From Chloroflexota bacterium (GTDB lineage: Bacteria > Chloroflexota > Anaerolineae > Anaerolineales > Anaerolineaceae): 64,000 nt of DNA. The notes below the pieces were generated by a model. It was not told the origin of the DNA. It did no database searches and was given only the letters and a program-made list of their open reading frames with translations. Position numbers and translations under genes: made by a program. Below are positions 252-8,109 of this stretch, piece after piece (within the stretch, counting starts at the first letter, position 1; every line of letters starts with the position of its first letter). Where the stretch lies: positions 1 to 64,000 of the forward strand of contig JAAYCN010000068.1 of NCBI GenBank assembly GCA_012729755.1. Reading direction: 5' to 3'.

Positions 252-1454
252 ATGCTAACGGTTAAAACACTTGACGATACCCTCCAAATTATTCGAGAAC
301 GATTTGGAATGCTGCGGTCTGGCAAAGAAACTGTGCCGATCCGAGAAGCATTAGGGCGATTCCTGGCGGTTTCTGTTACCGCTGATGAGTTTGTGCCTGA
401 TTTCAACCGTTCCACTGTGGATGGTTTCGCGGTAAGAGCTGTGGATGTGCAGGGGAGCTCTGATTCGATTCCGGCGATCTTGACCTGTGTAGGGGAAGTC
501 CATATGGGGCAAGGCAGCTTTTTCAGGGTCGGCGACGACCAGTGCGCCAGTGTGCCAACAGGCGGTGAAGTGCCTGCCGGCGCTGATTCTGTGGTGATGA
601 TGGAATTCGTGGAAGCGATCGGCGGTGGTCAATATGCGTTTTATAAGCCGAGCCCGCCGGGAAGCAACATGATCATACGTGGTGAAGACGGCAAGCCGGG
701 TGATCTGCTTCTCTGGCAAGGCAAACGCTTGAATTCAGCTGATTTAGGAACGCTTTCAGCGTTGGGAAGCAGTGAGGTGAGTGTCTCAACCCGACCGAAA
801 GTGGGAATTATTTCGACCGGCGATGAATTGGTCAATCCGGGTGAACCTTTGGGCCCCGGTCAAATCAGAGATGTCAATCAAGTGCTCATGCGGTCGCTCG
901 TTGAAGAAAATGACGGAATCGCAAAGTTCTACGGCATCGTGATTGATGAAGTTTCCGCGCTGCGGACTCGGGTTGTTCAGGCAGTCGCTGAATGCGACCT
1001 GGTTTTGGTCAGCGGAGGTACCTCTGTCGGTGAGCGTGACGCGATGGCAAAGGTTTTGTCCCAACTTGGTGAAATTTTTGTGCATGGTATCGCGGTAAAA
1101 CCAGGAAAACCGACCTTGTTGGGGAAAATAGATGATAAACCGATCTTTGGCTTACCGGGCAACCCAGTGGCGTGTTTTTTCATTTTTAATGCGCTCGTAA
1201 AGCCGCTGTTGCTGTCATTGCAGGGGGCTGAAGAAACCCGCGTCAGTCTTCCAGCTAAATTAACCAGGGCGGTTTCATCAAACCACGGTCGAGCAGAATT
1301 CGTCTTAGTTGAGTTGAGCGGATCGCAGGCCGCGCCAATTCCGAGCAAATCAGGTTTGATCTCGACAGTCAGCAAAGCGAATGGCTATTTTGTCATTCAA
1401 CGCGACCAGGAGGGGCTGCCTGCCGGAGCGGATGTCGAGATTTATTTGTTCTAA
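252..1454 (+). CDS. moeA: Molybdopterin molybdenumtransferase MoeA
   Basis: 400-aa ORF; MoeA signatures FNRSTVDGFAVRA, GAD(S)VVMMEFVE, ISTGDELV, GGTSVGERD, KPGKPTLLG, GLPGNPVACFF. Confidence 0.93.
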   Translation: MLTVKTLDDTLQIIRERFGMLRSGKETVPIREALGRFLAVSVTADEFVPDFNRSTVDGFAVRAVDVQGSSDSIPAILTCVGEVHMGQGSFFRVGDDQCASVPTGGEVPAGADSVVMMEFVEAIGGGQYAFYKPSPPGSNMIIRGEDGKPGDLLLWQGKRLNSADLGTLSALGSSEVSVSTRPKVGIISTGDELVNPGEPLGPGQIRDVNQVLMRSLVEENDGIAKFYGIVIDEVSALRTRVVQAVAECDLVLVSGGTSVGERDAMAKVLSQLGEIFVHGIAVKPGKPTLLGKIDDKPIFGLPGNPVACFFIFNALVKPLLLSLQGAEETRVSLPAKLTRAVSSNHGRAEFVLVELSGSQAAPIPSKSGLISTVSKANGYFVIQRDQEGLPAGADVEIYLF

Positions 1455-1466
1455 CAGGAGGGTAAC

Positions 1467-3380
1467 ATGGCCTTTACTTATCTAACCAATATACCACTCG
1501 AGCAAGCGCGGGCTGATTACCTGGCTCGTTTGATCGAGCTCGGCCTGTCAGCAAAGGCTGAAACCATCGCTACGGTTGAAGCCAACCATCGCGTGACGGC
1601 CAAGGCTGTGTATGCCAGAATCAGCGCGCCGCATTACAACGCTTGCGCGATGGATGGGATCGCGTTGGATGCCTCGAAAACTTTTGGGGCTAATGAGGTT
1701 AATCCGGTGATTCTGGAAGAAGCGGATTTCACTTGGGTAAATACCGGTGATCCGCTGCCGAGCGGATGTGACAGCGTTGTGATGGTGGAAGATGTCATCC
1801 GGGAGGGCGATTCGGTGAAGCTGTTTGCGGCAGCTACTCCCTGGCAGCATGTGAGGCAGATTGGCGAGGATGTCGCGGCAGGGGATATGATTATTCCATC
1901 CTATGAAGAACTTACCCCACCAGCGCTGGGGGCTCTGCTGGCCGCGGGGGTGCTCGAGGTAGAGGTAATTCAGAAGCCACTGGTGGCTTTCATTCCAACC
2001 GGAAATGAGATTGTTTCCCCAAAAAAGCATCCCGAGCCTGGTGAAATTATCGAGTTCAATTCAACAATTTTCTGCGGCATGGTTGAGGATTGGGGATGTC
2101 GAAGCAAGGTATATCCGATCGTGCCGGACAATCAAATCGCGATTGAAGCGGCAATAAGACAAGCCTCAGCAGAATGCGATCTGGTGTTGCTTAATGCCGG
2201 CTCATCAGCCGGCGCCAGGGATTACGCGATTGAGGCGATAGGCAAAGTCGGAGAAGTCGTCTTGCATGGCATTGCCATCAAACCTGGCAAGCCAACAATC
2301 CTCGCAAATATGATGAAATGCGAGCAGGTGGTGCCGCTGATCGGCCTGCCGGGGTACCCGGTTTCAGGAATCCTGGTGATGGAAGAAATCATTAAAGAGG
2401 TGATTTCCCTGATGACAAAACGAGTTTACCCTGCTGATAAAACAGTGGAGGCGACCAGTTCGCGCCGGCTCAATTCAGGTTTGAAGTATTTGGAATTCAT
2501 TCGCGCGAGGGTCGGAAACGTTGCCGGCAAGCGCGTAGCTGTTGCGCTGAATCGCGGCGCGGGGGTGGTCAGTTCGTTTGTCAAGGCTGATGGTATTGTG
2601 AAAATCCCACAAGATCTGGAAGGTTATGAGGCGGGCGAACAAGTTGAGGTTCAATTATTGAAATCGCTGGAGGAAATAGATCGCACTCTGGTGATTACCG
2701 GCAGTCATGACCCATTGATTGATGAAGTAATTGACCTGATGAAGCATCGGTATCCGGCTGATCGTGTGGCATCTTCACACGTGGGCAGTTTGGGCGGGAT
2801 CCTGGCTGTCAAACGTGGCGAAGCTCATCTGGGGGGGGTACATTTATTGGACGAAGACAGTGGCGAATACAATTTAGGGTATATGCGCAAGTATTTTACA
2901 GAAGGTGGTGTCGTGCTGCTGTCTTGTGTCAAGCGTACGCAAGGGTTGATCGTTGAAAAGGGCAACCCAAGGGGAGTGAAAGGGATTGAGGATTTGCCGG
3001 GGCTTAATTATGTCAACCGCCAAAAAGGGAGCGGAACACGCATCCTGATCGATTATATGTGTAAGAAACACGGTATCGATACCACCGCGATCAAAGGATA
3101 CACCCGAGAGGAATTCACCCATACAGCTGTCGCGGCCGCGGTTGCCATGGGCACGGCAGATGTCGGCTTGGGTATCTATGCGGCGTCCCGAATCTATGAC
3201 CTCGACTTTATTCCTGTGGGTGAAGAGCAATATGATCTCCTGTTTTTAGAGTCGGCCTTAGAGCTCGCGCCGGCGCAACATTTTCTGGACGTGTTAAAAT
3301 CAACTGATCTGACCATCAGGCTGAAAGCCATGGGCGGATATGAGATGAACAACCCAGGAGCGGTGAGAAAATGGAATTGA
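1467..3380 (+). CDS. MoeA-like molybdopterin biosynthesis protein fused to a C-terminal periplasmic-binding-protein-like (PBP) domain
   Basis: N-terminal MoeA motifs ([50 protein letters not shown]); C-terminal part ([22 protein letters not shown]...[32 protein letters not shown]) resembles the substrate-binding-like domain known from MoeA-PBP fusions. Confidence 0.9.
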
Positions 3381-3853
3381 CCCATCTGGATGAAAAGGGC
3401 GCCGCCAGAATGGTGGATGTGAGCCAAAAACAGGCAACAGAGCGCATAGCCAAAGCCGAATCTCGCGTGAGAATGGCACCAGAAACTCTAAAGTTAATTT
3501 TGGCCGGCGAAGCAAAAAAAGGCGATGTTTTGGCGGTAGCGCGTGTGGCGGGGATTATGGCCGCCAAGAAAACATCTGAATTAATTCCCCTTTGTCACCA
3601 AATCCCAATCACGGGTGTAAGCATCGAATTTGAAGCTGTTGGAGAAACCGAGCTGGTAATCACCTCTTTTGTAAAAACTGTCAGTCAGACCGGTGTTGAG
3701 ATGGAAGCTTTGGTAGCGGCTTCTGTATCCGCGTTGACGGTTTATGATATGTTAAAGGCGGTTGACCGCGGCATGGTGATCGTGGAAACTTTGCTCGTGC
3801 TTAAGGACGGGGGTCGATCAGGTCGTTTTGAAAGAGGCACACGAAGGTTATGA
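3371..3853 (+). CDS. moaC: Cyclic pyranopterin monophosphate synthase MoaC
   Basis: 160 aa; [65 protein letters not shown]. Confidence 0.96.
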
Positions 3854-4791
3854 AAGACCAGTTTGGCAGAGAGATAAGTTACCTGCGGCTTTCGATCACA
3901 GAACGTTGCACATTGCGCTGCGTTTATTGCCGTTCCGAAGAAGGACTATGCCCGAAGGCCGCGGAACTAACTGCTGACCAATTGATAGAGGTCACTCGCG
4001 CGTGCGCTGAACTTGGGGTTAATAAAGTGCGCGTTACAGGCGGTGAGCCGCTCTTGCGTCGAGACCTGATTGAAATTGTCGCGGGGATTCGTGCCATCCC
4101 TGAAATCAAAGATGTTTCCCTGACGACGAACGCCCAGGATTTGGCGAATCAGGCAGCTGGTTTGAAAACTGCGGGTCTGGATCGGATAAATATCAGCATG
4201 GATTCGCTCGATCCAGATAAGTTCGAACGTATGACTAATGGAAATCTGATGAAGGTGCTGGAAGGCATTGAGAAAGCGATTGAAGTCGGTCTGGCACCGA
4301 TCAAGATTAATTGTGTGTTGATCAAAGGCACGAATGATGATGAGGTAAGGGATTTCATCGAGTTTACCCGCGATCACCCGATTGACGTGCGGTTTATTGA
4401 ATATATGCCAATCGGCAATGACAGCGAAAAAGTGGGCATTAACAATCAGGATATCCTGGCTGCCTTTCCGGAGCTGGAGCCTGTCCTGTCGCGTTACGCT
4501 GGTCAACCATCCCGGGACTATCAGATTAAAGGTTATCAGGGGCGGGTTGGGTTGATTAGCCCGATTTCCCGGCGCTTCTGTATCGACTGCAACCGCATTC
4601 GCATGATGAGCGATGGCACCCTGCGGGCTTGTCTGGGGCAGGAAAGCGAAGTTTGCCTGCGGCCAGCGCTCGACCAGGGGCATGAGGCGATTCGCGATCT
4701 GATTGAAAAAACAATATACAACAAGCCGCGCGGACACAATTTCGGAAGAGAGCATTTGAATCAGCGCAATATGAGCCGCATTGGAGGATGA
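3850..4791 (+). CDS. moaA: GTP 3',8-cyclase MoaA (radical SAM)
   Basis: [16 protein letters not shown] (CxxxCxxC), [14 protein letters not shown]-terminal FCIDCNRIR cluster and terminal GG (SRIGG*); ATGA overlap with moaC. Confidence 0.95.
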
Positions 4792-4792
4792 T

Positions 4793-5713
4793 TTGCCAAA
4801 AGTTTTAGCAGTCAGCATTAGTGATAAAAAGGGAATAATCAAGACGCCGATTGAGAAGGCGAGACTGATTGAAAATTTCGGCATCGAAGGCGACGCTCAT
4901 GCTGGCAATTGGCACCGTCAGGTGAGCTTGCTGGATCAGCGCAGCGTTGACAAGATGATTGCCAAAGGGGCGAAGGGTTTGCGCCCCGGTATTTTCGCTG
5001 AGAATATCACTACGGAAGGGATCGAGCTGTTCAGCCTGCCGATCGGCACCAAAATTGAGATTGGCGATGTGCTCTTGGAAGTGACGCAGATTGGCAAAGA
5101 ATGCCATCAGCATTGTCAGATCTATCAGCAGGTGGGCAGTTGTGTTATGCCGCTGGAAGGCATTTTCACCCGGGTTCTGAGAGGCGGCGAAATTCAGGCA
5201 GGGGATGAGATTACGGTCAAGCCAATCATCAAAGGCGCTGTTGTGACGCTTTCGGATAAAAGCTTTGAAGGGATTCGTGAAGATAAATCCGGACCAGCTA
5301 TCGTGCAGAGACTGCAAGGACTGGTTGAGATCCTGGAGGCGCGGATTTTAGCGGATGATCAGGGGCAAATTGAAAAAACTTTGATTGAGCTCGTCGATCG
5401 CGGGGATCTTGATCTGGTCTTCACGACTGGTGGAACAGGTTTAGCCCCGCGGGATGTAACCCCTGAGGCGACCAAAGCGGTCTGTACGCGCCTTGTGCCT
5501 GGAATTCCTGAAGCGATGCGTGCGGCCAGTGCCGAAATTACTGACAAGGCTATGCTCAGTCGAGCGGTGGCTGGCATTCGCGGCAAAACATTGATCATCA
5601 ATCTGCCCGGCAGCCCTAAGGCGGCGATTGAATGTCTCGAGGTTTTCCTGCCGGTGATGAACCATGCAATCGAAACATTACGGGGCGAGGCATTTGAGTG
5701 TGGCAGGAGTTAA
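4793..5713 (+). CDS. MOSC domain - MogA/MoaB (molybdopterin adenylyltransferase) fusion protein
   Basis: N-terminal MOSC (GDAHAGNWHRQVSLLDQRSVDK, LRPGIFAENITTEGIEL, GKECHQHC); C-terminal MogA (AVVTLSDKSFEGIREDKSGP, TTGGTGLAPRDVTPEA, INLPGSPKAAIECL). Start taken as TTG 4793 downstream of GGAGG; track ORF begins at 4781. Confidence 0.88.
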   Translation: MPKVLAVSISDKKGIIKTPIEKARLIENFGIEGDAHAGNWHRQVSLLDQRSVDKMIAKGAKGLRPGIFAENITTEGIELFSLPIGTKIEIGDVLLEVTQIGKECHQHCQIYQQVGSCVMPLEGIFTRVLRGGEIQAGDEITVKPIIKGAVVTLSDKSFEGIREDKSGPAIVQRLQGLVEILEARILADDQGQIEKTLIELVDRGDLDLVFTTGGTGLAPRDVTPEATKAVCTRLVPGIPEAMRAASAEITDKAMLSRAVAGIRGKTLIINLPGSPKAAIECLEVFLPVMNHAIETLRGEAFECGRS

Positions 5714-5774
5714 TCCTCCCGACAGGTGATATAATTCATGCACTTTTGTAATTCGACAAAAGTTTCTTCGACCT

Positions 5775-5894
5775 GCTCGACCTAATTGCCCACGCAGATG
5801 GTCCTGCAGGCGGAAGTCACAGTAAATCCAAAGCGCTGTGGCTCAAGGGTGTCTGGGGAAACCAAGACGCCTCCCGTTTGGAAAGGAGAAGTGT
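5775..5894 (+). promoter_or_regulatory. Moco/Tuco (molybdenum or tungsten cofactor) riboswitch-like leader upstream of tupA
   Basis: Hairpins GCAG(5794-5797)/CTGC(5804-5807); GTCACAG(5816-5822)/CTGTGGC(5836-5842); GGTGTCT(5848-5854)/AGACGCC(5865-5871) capped by a GAAA tetraloop; then GCCTCCCGTTTGGAAAGGAG, closely like the GCCUCCCGU..GGAAAGG end of the E. coli moaA Moco riboswitch as I recall it. A TATAAT box (5730-5735) lies upstream. Confidence 0.8.
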
Positions 5895-6710
5895 ATGAAG
5901 AAGTTGTTTTTGGTTTTAATCATGGGGGCAATGGTATTTAGTTTCGCGGCTTGTCAGAAAACCATTGAGAACCCGGTCATTCGCATGTCGACTACGACCT
6001 CGGTGAATGATTCAGGTTTAATGGGCTACTTGTTGCCTGAGTTCGAGAAAGCGACCGGATACAAGCTCGAAATTACTTCCGCGGGCACTGGTGCGGCGAT
6101 TGAGAAGGGTGTTAAAGGGGATGCGGATATCCTGCTGGTGCACTCAAAAAGCCAGGAAGAAAAGTTCATTGGAGAGGGCTTTGATGAGGTCAGGGTTCCA
6201 TTCATGTACAACTATTTCGTGATTGTTGGCCCTGCGTCAGATCCGGCAGGCGTGAAGAATTCAAAAACCGCGGCAGAAGCCTTCAAGCTGATCTTCGACA
6301 GCGGTTCACCATTCATCACGCGGGGTGACAAGAGCGGCACCAATACCAAAGAATTAGGGCTTTGGGAGGCTGCTGGGGTCAACCCCGAAGGTCAGCCCTG
6401 GTATGAAAATATAGGCAGTGGTATGGGCGCGGCATTGACCGCGGCGAACGAGAAACAGGCTTACACTCTGTCGGATAAGGCTACTTACCTGGCGCATGAA
6501 AATGATCTTGAGATCCTGTTGGAAACCGCTGACGATATGATGAACACCTATTCCATGATTGCCATCAGCCCGAAGCGTTTTGCCGACACGAACGCGGTTG
6601 GCGCCCAGGCTTTTATTGACTGGGTGAAAAGCGACGCTGCCCGCAAACTGATCGCTGAGTATGGCGTCAAAGAATACGGTCAGGCGTTATTCTACAATCT
6701 GGACAAGTAA
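5895..6710 (+). CDS. tupA: Tungstate ABC transporter substrate-binding lipoprotein TupA
   Basis: Lipoprotein signal MKKLFLVLIMGAMVFSFAAC; RMSTTTSVNDSGLMGYLLPEFE, SAGTGAAIEKGVKGDADILLVHS, YTLSDKATYLA; start at ATG 5895 inside track ORF 5838-6710. Confidence 0.9.
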   Translation: MKKLFLVLIMGAMVFSFAACQKTIENPVIRMSTTTSVNDSGLMGYLLPEFEKATGYKLEITSAGTGAAIEKGVKGDADILLVHSKSQEEKFIGEGFDEVRVPFMYNYFVIVGPASDPAGVKNSKTAAEAFKLIFDSGSPFITRGDKSGTNTKELGLWEAAGVNPEGQPWYENIGSGMGAALTAANEKQAYTLSDKATYLAHENDLEILLETADDMMNTYSMIAISPKRFADTNAVGAQAFIDWVKSDAARKLIAEYGVKEYGQALFYNLDK

Positions 6711-6758: not shown

Positions 6759-7445
6759 ATGGAATTCATCCGTACTGCTTTAAACCTCCTGTTCGGGGCC
6801 AACCCTGAATTGCGCCAGATTATCGGCGTGACTCTGCGTATGTCGATGTTCAGCACGCTGATTTCAGCTTTGCTCGGCATTCCGATTGGGGTTTGGGTGG
6901 GAGGTAATGAGTTTAAACTCAAAGGTTGGGTGACCCGTCTGATGAACACACTGATGGGCATTCCGCCCGTGGTAGGCGGCCTGGTTGTCTATCTCTTACT
7001 GTCAAGGTCAGGCCCATTGGGCAGCTTAAAGCTTTTATATACCGTAACTGCCATGGTGATCGCGCAGGTAATATTGATTACGCCGATCATCGCCAGCATG
7101 ACCGCCAATGTCGTCTCAATTCGTGCTAATTCCATCCGCGAGACTTGTCATGGACTGGGGATTGGCAATCACCAGCGCATGCGTTTGATGCTGGCCGAGT
7201 TCAGGGTGCCATTTATCTCTATTGTTTTGGCTGGCTTTGGCCGAGCTATTGCCGAGGTGGGGGCGATCCAGATGGTAGGTGGCAACATCCAATTCAAAAC
7301 CCGTGTGATGACCACAGCGATCATGATGCAATCAAATATGGGTCATTTTGAGCTGGCAGTCGCGCTCGGTGTGGTGTTGTTGTTGATTTCATTCGCCATT
7401 AATTCTTTTGTTTACAGGCTGCAGAAAGGATGGCAGCGTGTATAG
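6759..7445 (+). CDS. tupB: Tungstate ABC transporter permease TupB
   Basis: 228-aa membrane permease; NTLMGIPPVVGGLVVYLLLSRSGPLG, AEFRVPFISIVLAGFGRAIAEVGAIQMVGGNI. Confidence 0.9.
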   Translation: MEFIRTALNLLFGANPELRQIIGVTLRMSMFSTLISALLGIPIGVWVGGNEFKLKGWVTRLMNTLMGIPPVVGGLVVYLLLSRSGPLGSLKLLYTVTAMVIAQVILITPIIASMTANVVSIRANSIRETCHGLGIGNHQRMRLMLAEFRVPFISIVLAGFGRAIAEVGAIQMVGGNIQFKTRVMTTAIMMQSNMGHFELAVALGVVLLLISFAINSFVYRLQKGWQRV

Positions 7446-8109
7446 CATCAAAGACGTTCGGGTTGTCTACGGCAGTCAATTGATCTTGTCAATTGATGAG
7501 CTATTATTTGAGAGCGCTAAAAAATATGGCATTATTGGTGAAAATGGAAGCGGCAAAACAACGTTGTTAAAAGTAATCAGCCAATGGCTTGTTCCAACGC
7601 ATGGGAATGTGACTGGTTTTAATAAGGTTGATGTTGGGTATATGCCACAGAAGCCGTTCATTTTCTCAATATCGGTACTGAACAACGTTCTGATTGCTTT
7701 GGAGGGGGTCAGCGACGCTGAACAGAGAGCTTTTTCCGCGCTGGAGAAAGTGGGTTTAAACGGTTTAGCGAAACGGCGTGCGGATCGCCTTTCAGGGGGG
7801 GAGATGCAGCGTCTGTCTCTGGCAAGGATGATTGCAAAGCCTCGCCAGGTACTGCTTCTCGATGAACCTTCCTCCGCGACTGACATCCGGGGTACTGATC
7901 AGATTGAAAAAATTTTGGACGCATATTGCGCGGAAACCAGGTGTACTTTGATCATGACCACCCATTCTCCTGCTCAAGCATTGAGAATGGTGGATGAAGT
8001 TATCTATCTGGAAGATGGTCAAATGGTCGAACATGGCCCGGCTGACCAGGTCATTCGTCATACTGACAACCCGAAAACTTTAGCTTTTCTGCAACATTGG
8101 CATATTTAG
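7438..8109 (+). CDS. tupC: Tungstate ABC transporter ATP-binding protein TupC
   Basis: Walker A GENGSGKTTLL, signature LSGGEMQRLSLARM, Walker B VLLLDEPSS; GTG start 7438 overlapping tupB. Confidence 0.9.
   Translation: MYSIKDVRVVYGSQLILSIDELLFESAKKYGIIGENGSGKTTLLKVISQWLVPTHGNVTGFNKVDVGYMPQKPFIFSISVLNNVLIALEGVSDAEQRAFSALEKVGLNGLAKRRADRLSGGEMQRLSLARMIAKPRQVLLLDEPSSATDIRGTDQIEKILDAYCAETRCTLIMTTHSPAQALRMVDEVIYLEDGQMVEHGPADQVIRHTDNPKTLAFLQHWHI

Follow-up and report, generated by a model that had tools for sequence, protein, structure and literature searches.

By sequence and predicted structure, the leader between a mog-type gene (ending at 5713) and tupA (ATG at 5895) of a Chloroflexota bacterium is a genuine, well-supported new member of the RF01055 riboswitch family, named in Rfam the "Molybdenum/Tungsten riboswitch aptamer (Moco RNA motif)." We consider it likely, with a probability of roughly four in five, that this P3-containing RNA controls the translation of tupABC, the cofactor-bound P1 helix hiding the tupA Shine-Dalgarno (SD) sequence. 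The leader is also an exception to the published P3 rule, in that it contains P3 yet precedes a predicted tungstate-type tupABC operon. Coordinates refer to the window, i.e., the whole 64-kb stretch of DNA analyzed, which belongs to a 2.2-Mb draft genome (95% complete, 2.3% contaminated).

Anatomy of the tupA leader

The leader is a full-length match to the Rfam covariance model (5754-5904, + strand; model positions 1-135), scoring 73.1 bits (E 9.7e-16) where the gathering score is 36. This match was the only regulatory RNA found across the window. The scan, which the initial annotation had asked for, bears out its proposal of a Moco riboswitch. The span proposed there, 5775-5894, falls short at the 5' end: the element begins ~10 nt earlier, and the 5' strand of P1 (5764-5769) had been excluded. 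The features of the leader and its operon are as follows.

4781..5713, + strand: MOSC-MogA/MoaB fusion, last gene of a moeA-moeA-moaC-moaA-mog cluster (family match)
5727..5735, + strand: putative extended -10 promoter-like TGATATAAT, with no good -35 (sequence inspection)
5742..5763, + strand: 5' hairpin ACTTTTGT/ACAAAAGT, just upstream of P1 and near the inferred transcript start (sequence; free-fold prediction)
5754..5904, + strand: RF01055 aptamer match (Rfam covariance model, 73.1 bits)
5764..5769, + strand: P1 5' strand TTCTTC (RF01055 alignment; P1 has 97% of cells paired in 26 relatives, a percentage biased in the structure's favor because the structure came from the window sequence and Rfam)
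5772..5782, + strand: P2 5' strand CCTGCTCGACC (RF01055 alignment, covariation)
5786..5797, + strand: inner P2 hairpin TTGC/GCAG, strands 5786-5789/5794-5797 (RF01055 alignment; pair probabilities)
5800..5810, + strand: P2 3' strand GGTCCTGCAGG (RF01055 alignment, covariation)
5815..5843, + strand: P3 stem AGTCACAGT (5815-5823)/GCTGTGGCT (5835-5843), 9 pairs, 11-nt loop (pair probabilities, covariation, linker-length class)
5848..5871, + strand: P4 hairpin, strands 5848-5857/5862-5871, GAAA tetraloop 5858-5861 (RF01055 alignment, covariation)
5873..5881, + strand: P5, a CC/GG two-pair helix (Rfam consensus structure)
5885..5890, + strand: P1 3' strand GGAGAA, overlapping the SD AAGGAG at 5883-5888 (RF01055 alignment, covariation, pair probabilities)
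5895..6710, + strand: tupA, tungstate-type periplasmic binding protein, 271 aa (structure matches, TupA family, pocket residues)
6759..7445, + strand: tupB permease (NF041773, 163 bits, below its cut-off)
7438..8109, + strand: tupC ATPase (family match)

Judged in this way, the conserved aptamer is complete, comprising P1, P2 with its tetraloop receptor, P3, P4 with GAAA, and P5. The P2 5' strand plus TAA forms one side of the receptor (CCUAA...AUGG, 5781-5785/5798-5801). The GAAA tetraloop closing P4 and the conserved 3' segment, GCCTCCCGTTTGGAAAGG at 5869-5886, had both been recognized earlier and were confirmed; the several hairpins described alongside them are real, but rather than three nested hairpins, P2, P3, and P4 are arranged inside P1. 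As with Moco RNAs that regulate molybdenum/tungsten cofactor, transport, or enzyme genes, tupABC lies directly downstream. A consensus scan of the leader for a full sigma-70 promoter returned none. The upstream moeA-moeA/PBP-moaC-moaA-MOSC/mog cluster (252-5713) lacks its own Moco RNA, whereas many of its relatives have one.

Covariation was assessed in an alignment of 26 P3-containing RNAs of the same class (the window sequence and its relatives). Two-sided changes occur in 28 of 39 pairs across P1, P2, P3, and P4, and the covariation score of 0.435 compares with 0.173 for shuffled alignments (0 of 500 shuffles, which leave the relatedness among sequences in place, reach 0.435) and ≤0.147 for slid ones. 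Covarying P1, P2, and P4, as expected of a Moco RNA, are thus present in these relatives, and P3 shows two-sided changes in 8 of the 8 pairs tested; a score below the gathering threshold together with a lack of covariation among homologous tupA leaders had been set as grounds for refuting the candidate. In six sequences—the host paralogues and two genus-mates—pairs 1 to 4 of P3 are standard throughout, with exchanges of G-C/A-T, T-G/C-G, and C-G/A-T, and the inner pairs vary.

In the free RNA, P3 pairs have a probability of 0.8 to 1.0, as calculated from unconstrained pair probabilities. The initial annotation had taken GCAG/CTGC for a short P3-like hairpin and had reasoned that an RNA with no full P3 would be of the tungsten cofactor (Tuco) type. 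Both segments belong to P2, with GCAG (5794-5797) supplying the 3' side of the inner helix and CTGC (5804-5807) falling within the P2 3' strand; pairing between the two has a predicted probability of <0.01. Since a 9-pair P3 is present and covarying, the argument from a missing P3 is unsupported, and the published criterion would assign the RNA to the Moco type. The RNA may still sense tungsten, on grounds other than those first given.

Predicted control of tupABC translation

TupA is closest to solved TupA structures (3LR1, E 5.5e-65; 5MY5, E 5.3e-52). NCBIfam model NF041772 is its best family by far (205 bits, E 1.3e-60), at a score below the equivalog cut-off of 400; seven further TupA proteins of the class also reach just 200 to 220 bits, so this cut-off appears tight for the clade. 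The tungstate site of Desulfovibrio alaskensis TupA comprises T9-T11, S12, H59, R118, T124, and D170 (PMC5517513), and all of these residues are conserved in the window protein (T33-T35, S36, H83, R143, T149, and D194). Together with the structural matches, the pocket supports the assignment of TupABC as a predicted tungstate-type transporter, in agreement with the initial annotation.

The SD lies 6 nt before the tupA ATG and within the 3' strand of P1, an anatomy that agrees with the earlier suggestion that the end of the aptamer doubles as the SD and would exert translational control. Binding of a molybdopterin-metal cofactor would stabilize P1, and the stabilized helix would hide the SD, so that tungstate uptake would be shut down when cofactor is plentiful (a feedback OFF switch). 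Without ligand, P1 would rarely form and tupA would be translated; unconstrained pair probabilities give P1 a probability of 0.05 to 0.08 in the free RNA, in which the SD is modeled as only partly accessible. A transcriptional platform with an intrinsic terminator was considered and rejected, as a + strand scan between aptamer and tupA was empty and P1 stops 4 nt before the ATG.

We infer the OFF-switch mechanism from this anatomy plus the precedent of the Escherichia coli moaA leader, in which the RBS is within P1 and the element is OFF with Moco (PMC2408646). The two leaders share P1 to P5 (including P3), the GAAA tetraloop with its receptor, and the predicted translational OFF switch; the E. 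coli element precedes molybdopterin (MPT)/Moco synthesis genes, whereas the window RNA precedes a tungstate-type transporter. In the literature found, there were no tested RF01055 RNAs from this clade. The layout with the SD in P1 recurs in genus-mates G399 and G405, both of which retain a P3-containing RNA before tupA, and in tupA leaders of rumen Clostridia.

P3 state and downstream genes

P3-lacking RNAs have been proposed to sense Tuco, whereas P3-containing RNAs were described as occurring exclusively with MPT/Moco genes and as Moco specific; the E. coli P3-containing RNA ignores tungsten, and the P3 criterion rests on gene association in 176 sequences (PMC2408646). Like the window RNA, P3-lacking RNAs often precede tupA, wtpA, or aldehyde oxidoreductase-type (AOR) genes. 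They differ in the P2-P4 linker, which is 5 to 6 nt (CGATAG) in P3-lacking RNAs and 37 nt with a full 9-pair stem in the window. The window RNA therefore combines the association with tungsten genes expected of a Tuco variant (tupABC, and AORs in the host) with a P3 that such a variant lacks.

We surveyed 396 genomes drawn from one class, 148 of which had an RF01055 match above the cut-off. Among the matches listed, we realigned 144 RNAs with our own model and classified 143 (63 with P3, 80 without); because the matches listed are the stronger ones, weak RNAs are undersampled in these counts. The linker is bimodal, at either 5 to 6 nt (mostly CGATAG) or 19 to 55 nt with a hairpin, and approximately nine misaligned rows were moved to the P3-lacking set by their CGATAG-type end. 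Downstream genes were assigned by tblastn (E ≤1e-5) or by inspection (AOR and fused ECF components). Ratios of P3-containing to P3-lacking RNAs among the matches listed were 12:0 for mog-moeA, 5:0 for other moa genes, 3:9 for moaA-first operons, 2:18 for wtp/mod, 0:3 for AOR, and 6:15 for ECF genes; Fisher values for this split ignore the relatedness of the genomes and serve as description only. For tup genes the ratio was about equal (10:9 among the matches listed), and the expectation that tup genes go with P3-lacking RNAs was rejected for the class sample. Some genes show the published tendency, but tup operons do not follow it. In two genomes (G068 and G091), tup lies behind a P3-containing RNA though the same genome has P3-lacking RNAs elsewhere.

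To look beyond the class, we scanned 80 TupA loci of GTDB genomes, of which more than 25 carry an upstream Moco RNA. P3-lacking tupA leaders occur in Dehalococcoidia, Syntrophomonas, Thermoanaerobacter, and others; P3-containing ones occur in rumen/gut Clostridia, Ruminococcaceae, one further Bacillota locus, and one Spirochaetes locus. The window TupA groups with those of rumen Clostridia and one Coriobacteriaceae (99/96 support), apart from other Chloroflexota TupAs, which suggests that tup was acquired by lateral transfer, possibly along with its leader. Within this clade, the rumen/gut Clostridia proteins (L148-L151, L153) are 53 to 56% identical to the window TupA, and their leaders likewise contain P3 and place the SD at the 3' end of the RNA directly before tupA; unlike the window leader, they have other P2/P4 sequences and a CUUCC...GAAAAGG variant of the 3' core, and belong to other phyla. 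On a tree of the 38 TupAs with an RNA, P3 state switches six or more times, and a single P3-containing clade was rejected (AU p 4e-52). L155, whose RNA matches weakly (E 0.006), was excluded from the second tree. A DmsB/NrfC-like family offers a second, weakly supported case of turnover (3 changes on 8 rows).

Turnover extends to the genus. Genus-mates G334, G396, and G400 have an orthologous tupA with apparently the same mog end upstream and no Moco RNA. Upstream of tupA in these three (L230, L231, and L232), a shared palindrome, CTCAATNATTGAG, runs into a -10-like box; it is absent from the window leader, its sole near match in the window (1 mismatch) lying inside tupC. It looks as though RNA control has been replaced by a putative DNA/protein operator in this genus, or the reverse.

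Several other arrangements were observed. A P3-containing and a P3-lacking Moco RNA stand in tandem before one wtpA operon in L022 (1515-1610 and 1778-1908, - strand), an arrangement that would form a natural leader with two inputs if the two types sense different cofactors; tandem pairs of P3-lacking RNAs precede wtpA operons in L015, L027, L077, L081, and L085. In the opposite direction, the P3 rule may also be broken by P3-lacking RNAs in L024 (1517-1615), L019, and L031, which precede genes named by inspection as a molybdenum hydroxylase of xanthine-oxidase type and as formate dehydrogenase-like. A P5 variant with a covarying C-G to G-C core change (CCUCCC...UUGGAAAGG to CCUGCC...UUGCAAAGG) often precedes iron-sulfur/molybdoenzyme-type operons (L012, L029, L032, L053, L054, L057, L061, L080, L083, L097, and L129). 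Another variant, often near moaA, carries a pair of hairpins in the P2-P4 interval and reaches P4 through a GUG junction (L047, L052, L069, L095, L109, L110, L112, L114, L117, and L132). Finally, Moco RNAs precede ECF-type transporters in which extracytoplasmic domains similar to PF00174, a molybdopterin-binding oxidoreductase domain, are either fused to the membrane S-like component (PF09819) or encoded alongside it (L006 2909-7509 on host contig C113, L026 1511-3052, L009, L025, L059, L064, L086-L091, L096, L102, and L133). We found no description of this system in a literature search; it is a candidate for uptake of molybdopterin, Moco/Tuco, or molybdenum/tungsten.

Molybdenum or tungsten cofactor as possible ligand

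The host genome has four Moco RNAs, all with P3 (short in the fourth). One precedes tupABC, another a lipoprotein-wtpA-wtpB operon (WtpA passes TIGR03730), a third an ECF-transporter operon, and the last, a weak match (51 bits), an open reading frame with a peptidase-M55-like match; the contigs carrying wtpAB and the ECF operon are short fragments (16 and 10 kb) of the draft genome. In genus-mate G405, a homologue of the wtp lipoprotein lies behind the same P3-containing RNA. The RF01055 scan found no Moco RNA at the host modABC, which adjoins putative selenium-hydroxylase-type accessory genes. Among oxyanion transporters of the host, Moco RNAs thus mark only the tungstate-type ones (tupABC and wtpAB, with modABC lacking one), which is the best indirect argument for sensing of the tungsten cofactor or of both cofactors. 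Because the host RNAs precede tupABC and wtpAB and not modABC, the RNA probably responds to the tungsten cofactor or to both cofactors, and not to Moco alone. The published P3 rule runs against this and predicts that the ligand should be Moco.

We put at a little under even odds the reading that P3 does not decide metal specificity and that P3-containing RNAs such as that of the window would sense the tungsten cofactor or either cofactor. Held with the same reserve, the P3 criterion would reflect a tendency of lineages and break down for tup operons. A less probable account is that the RNA senses Moco only, in which case Moco sufficiency would lower tungstate uptake, or TupABC would also carry molybdate. 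It draws on the presence of P3, the indifference of the E. coli P3-containing RNA to tungsten (PMC2408646), the class ratios for mog-moeA and AOR among the matches listed, and the four MoCoBD_1 (xanthine-oxidase-type) molybdenum hydroxylases of the host. Set against these are the tungstate-type pocket of TupA, a molybdate route (modABC) that carries no Moco RNA, and the fact that all four host RNAs contain P3 despite the tungstate transporters and three AFOR_N (AOR, tungsten-type) proteins, one of which was checked in full.

That the aptamer is a relic, inherited with the operon after regulation was lost, would fit the three genus-mates with the palindrome next to the -10 box in place of an RNA; we regard this as improbable given the fully conserved core, the compensatory P3 changes among genus copies, and the four copies in one genome. 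More improbable still is the P3-lacking Tuco-type variant of the initial annotation: the regulated gene is indeed of tungstate type, but the hairpin invoked is P2, and the structure and covariation of the 37-nt linker with its P3 refute it.

The finding bears on how Moco-family RNAs discriminate molybdenum from tungsten, a question open since 2008 in the literature found, for which P3 is the sole criterion offered. Counter-examples to that criterion recur: besides the window leader, they include those of its genus-mates and of rumen Clostridia, as well as several further tup operons of the class. Orthologous genes that switch between P3-containing and P3-lacking leaders provide matched pairs for a direct test, and the host is a clean case, having separate molybdenum and tungsten uptake systems of which only the tungsten-type ones carry Moco RNAs.
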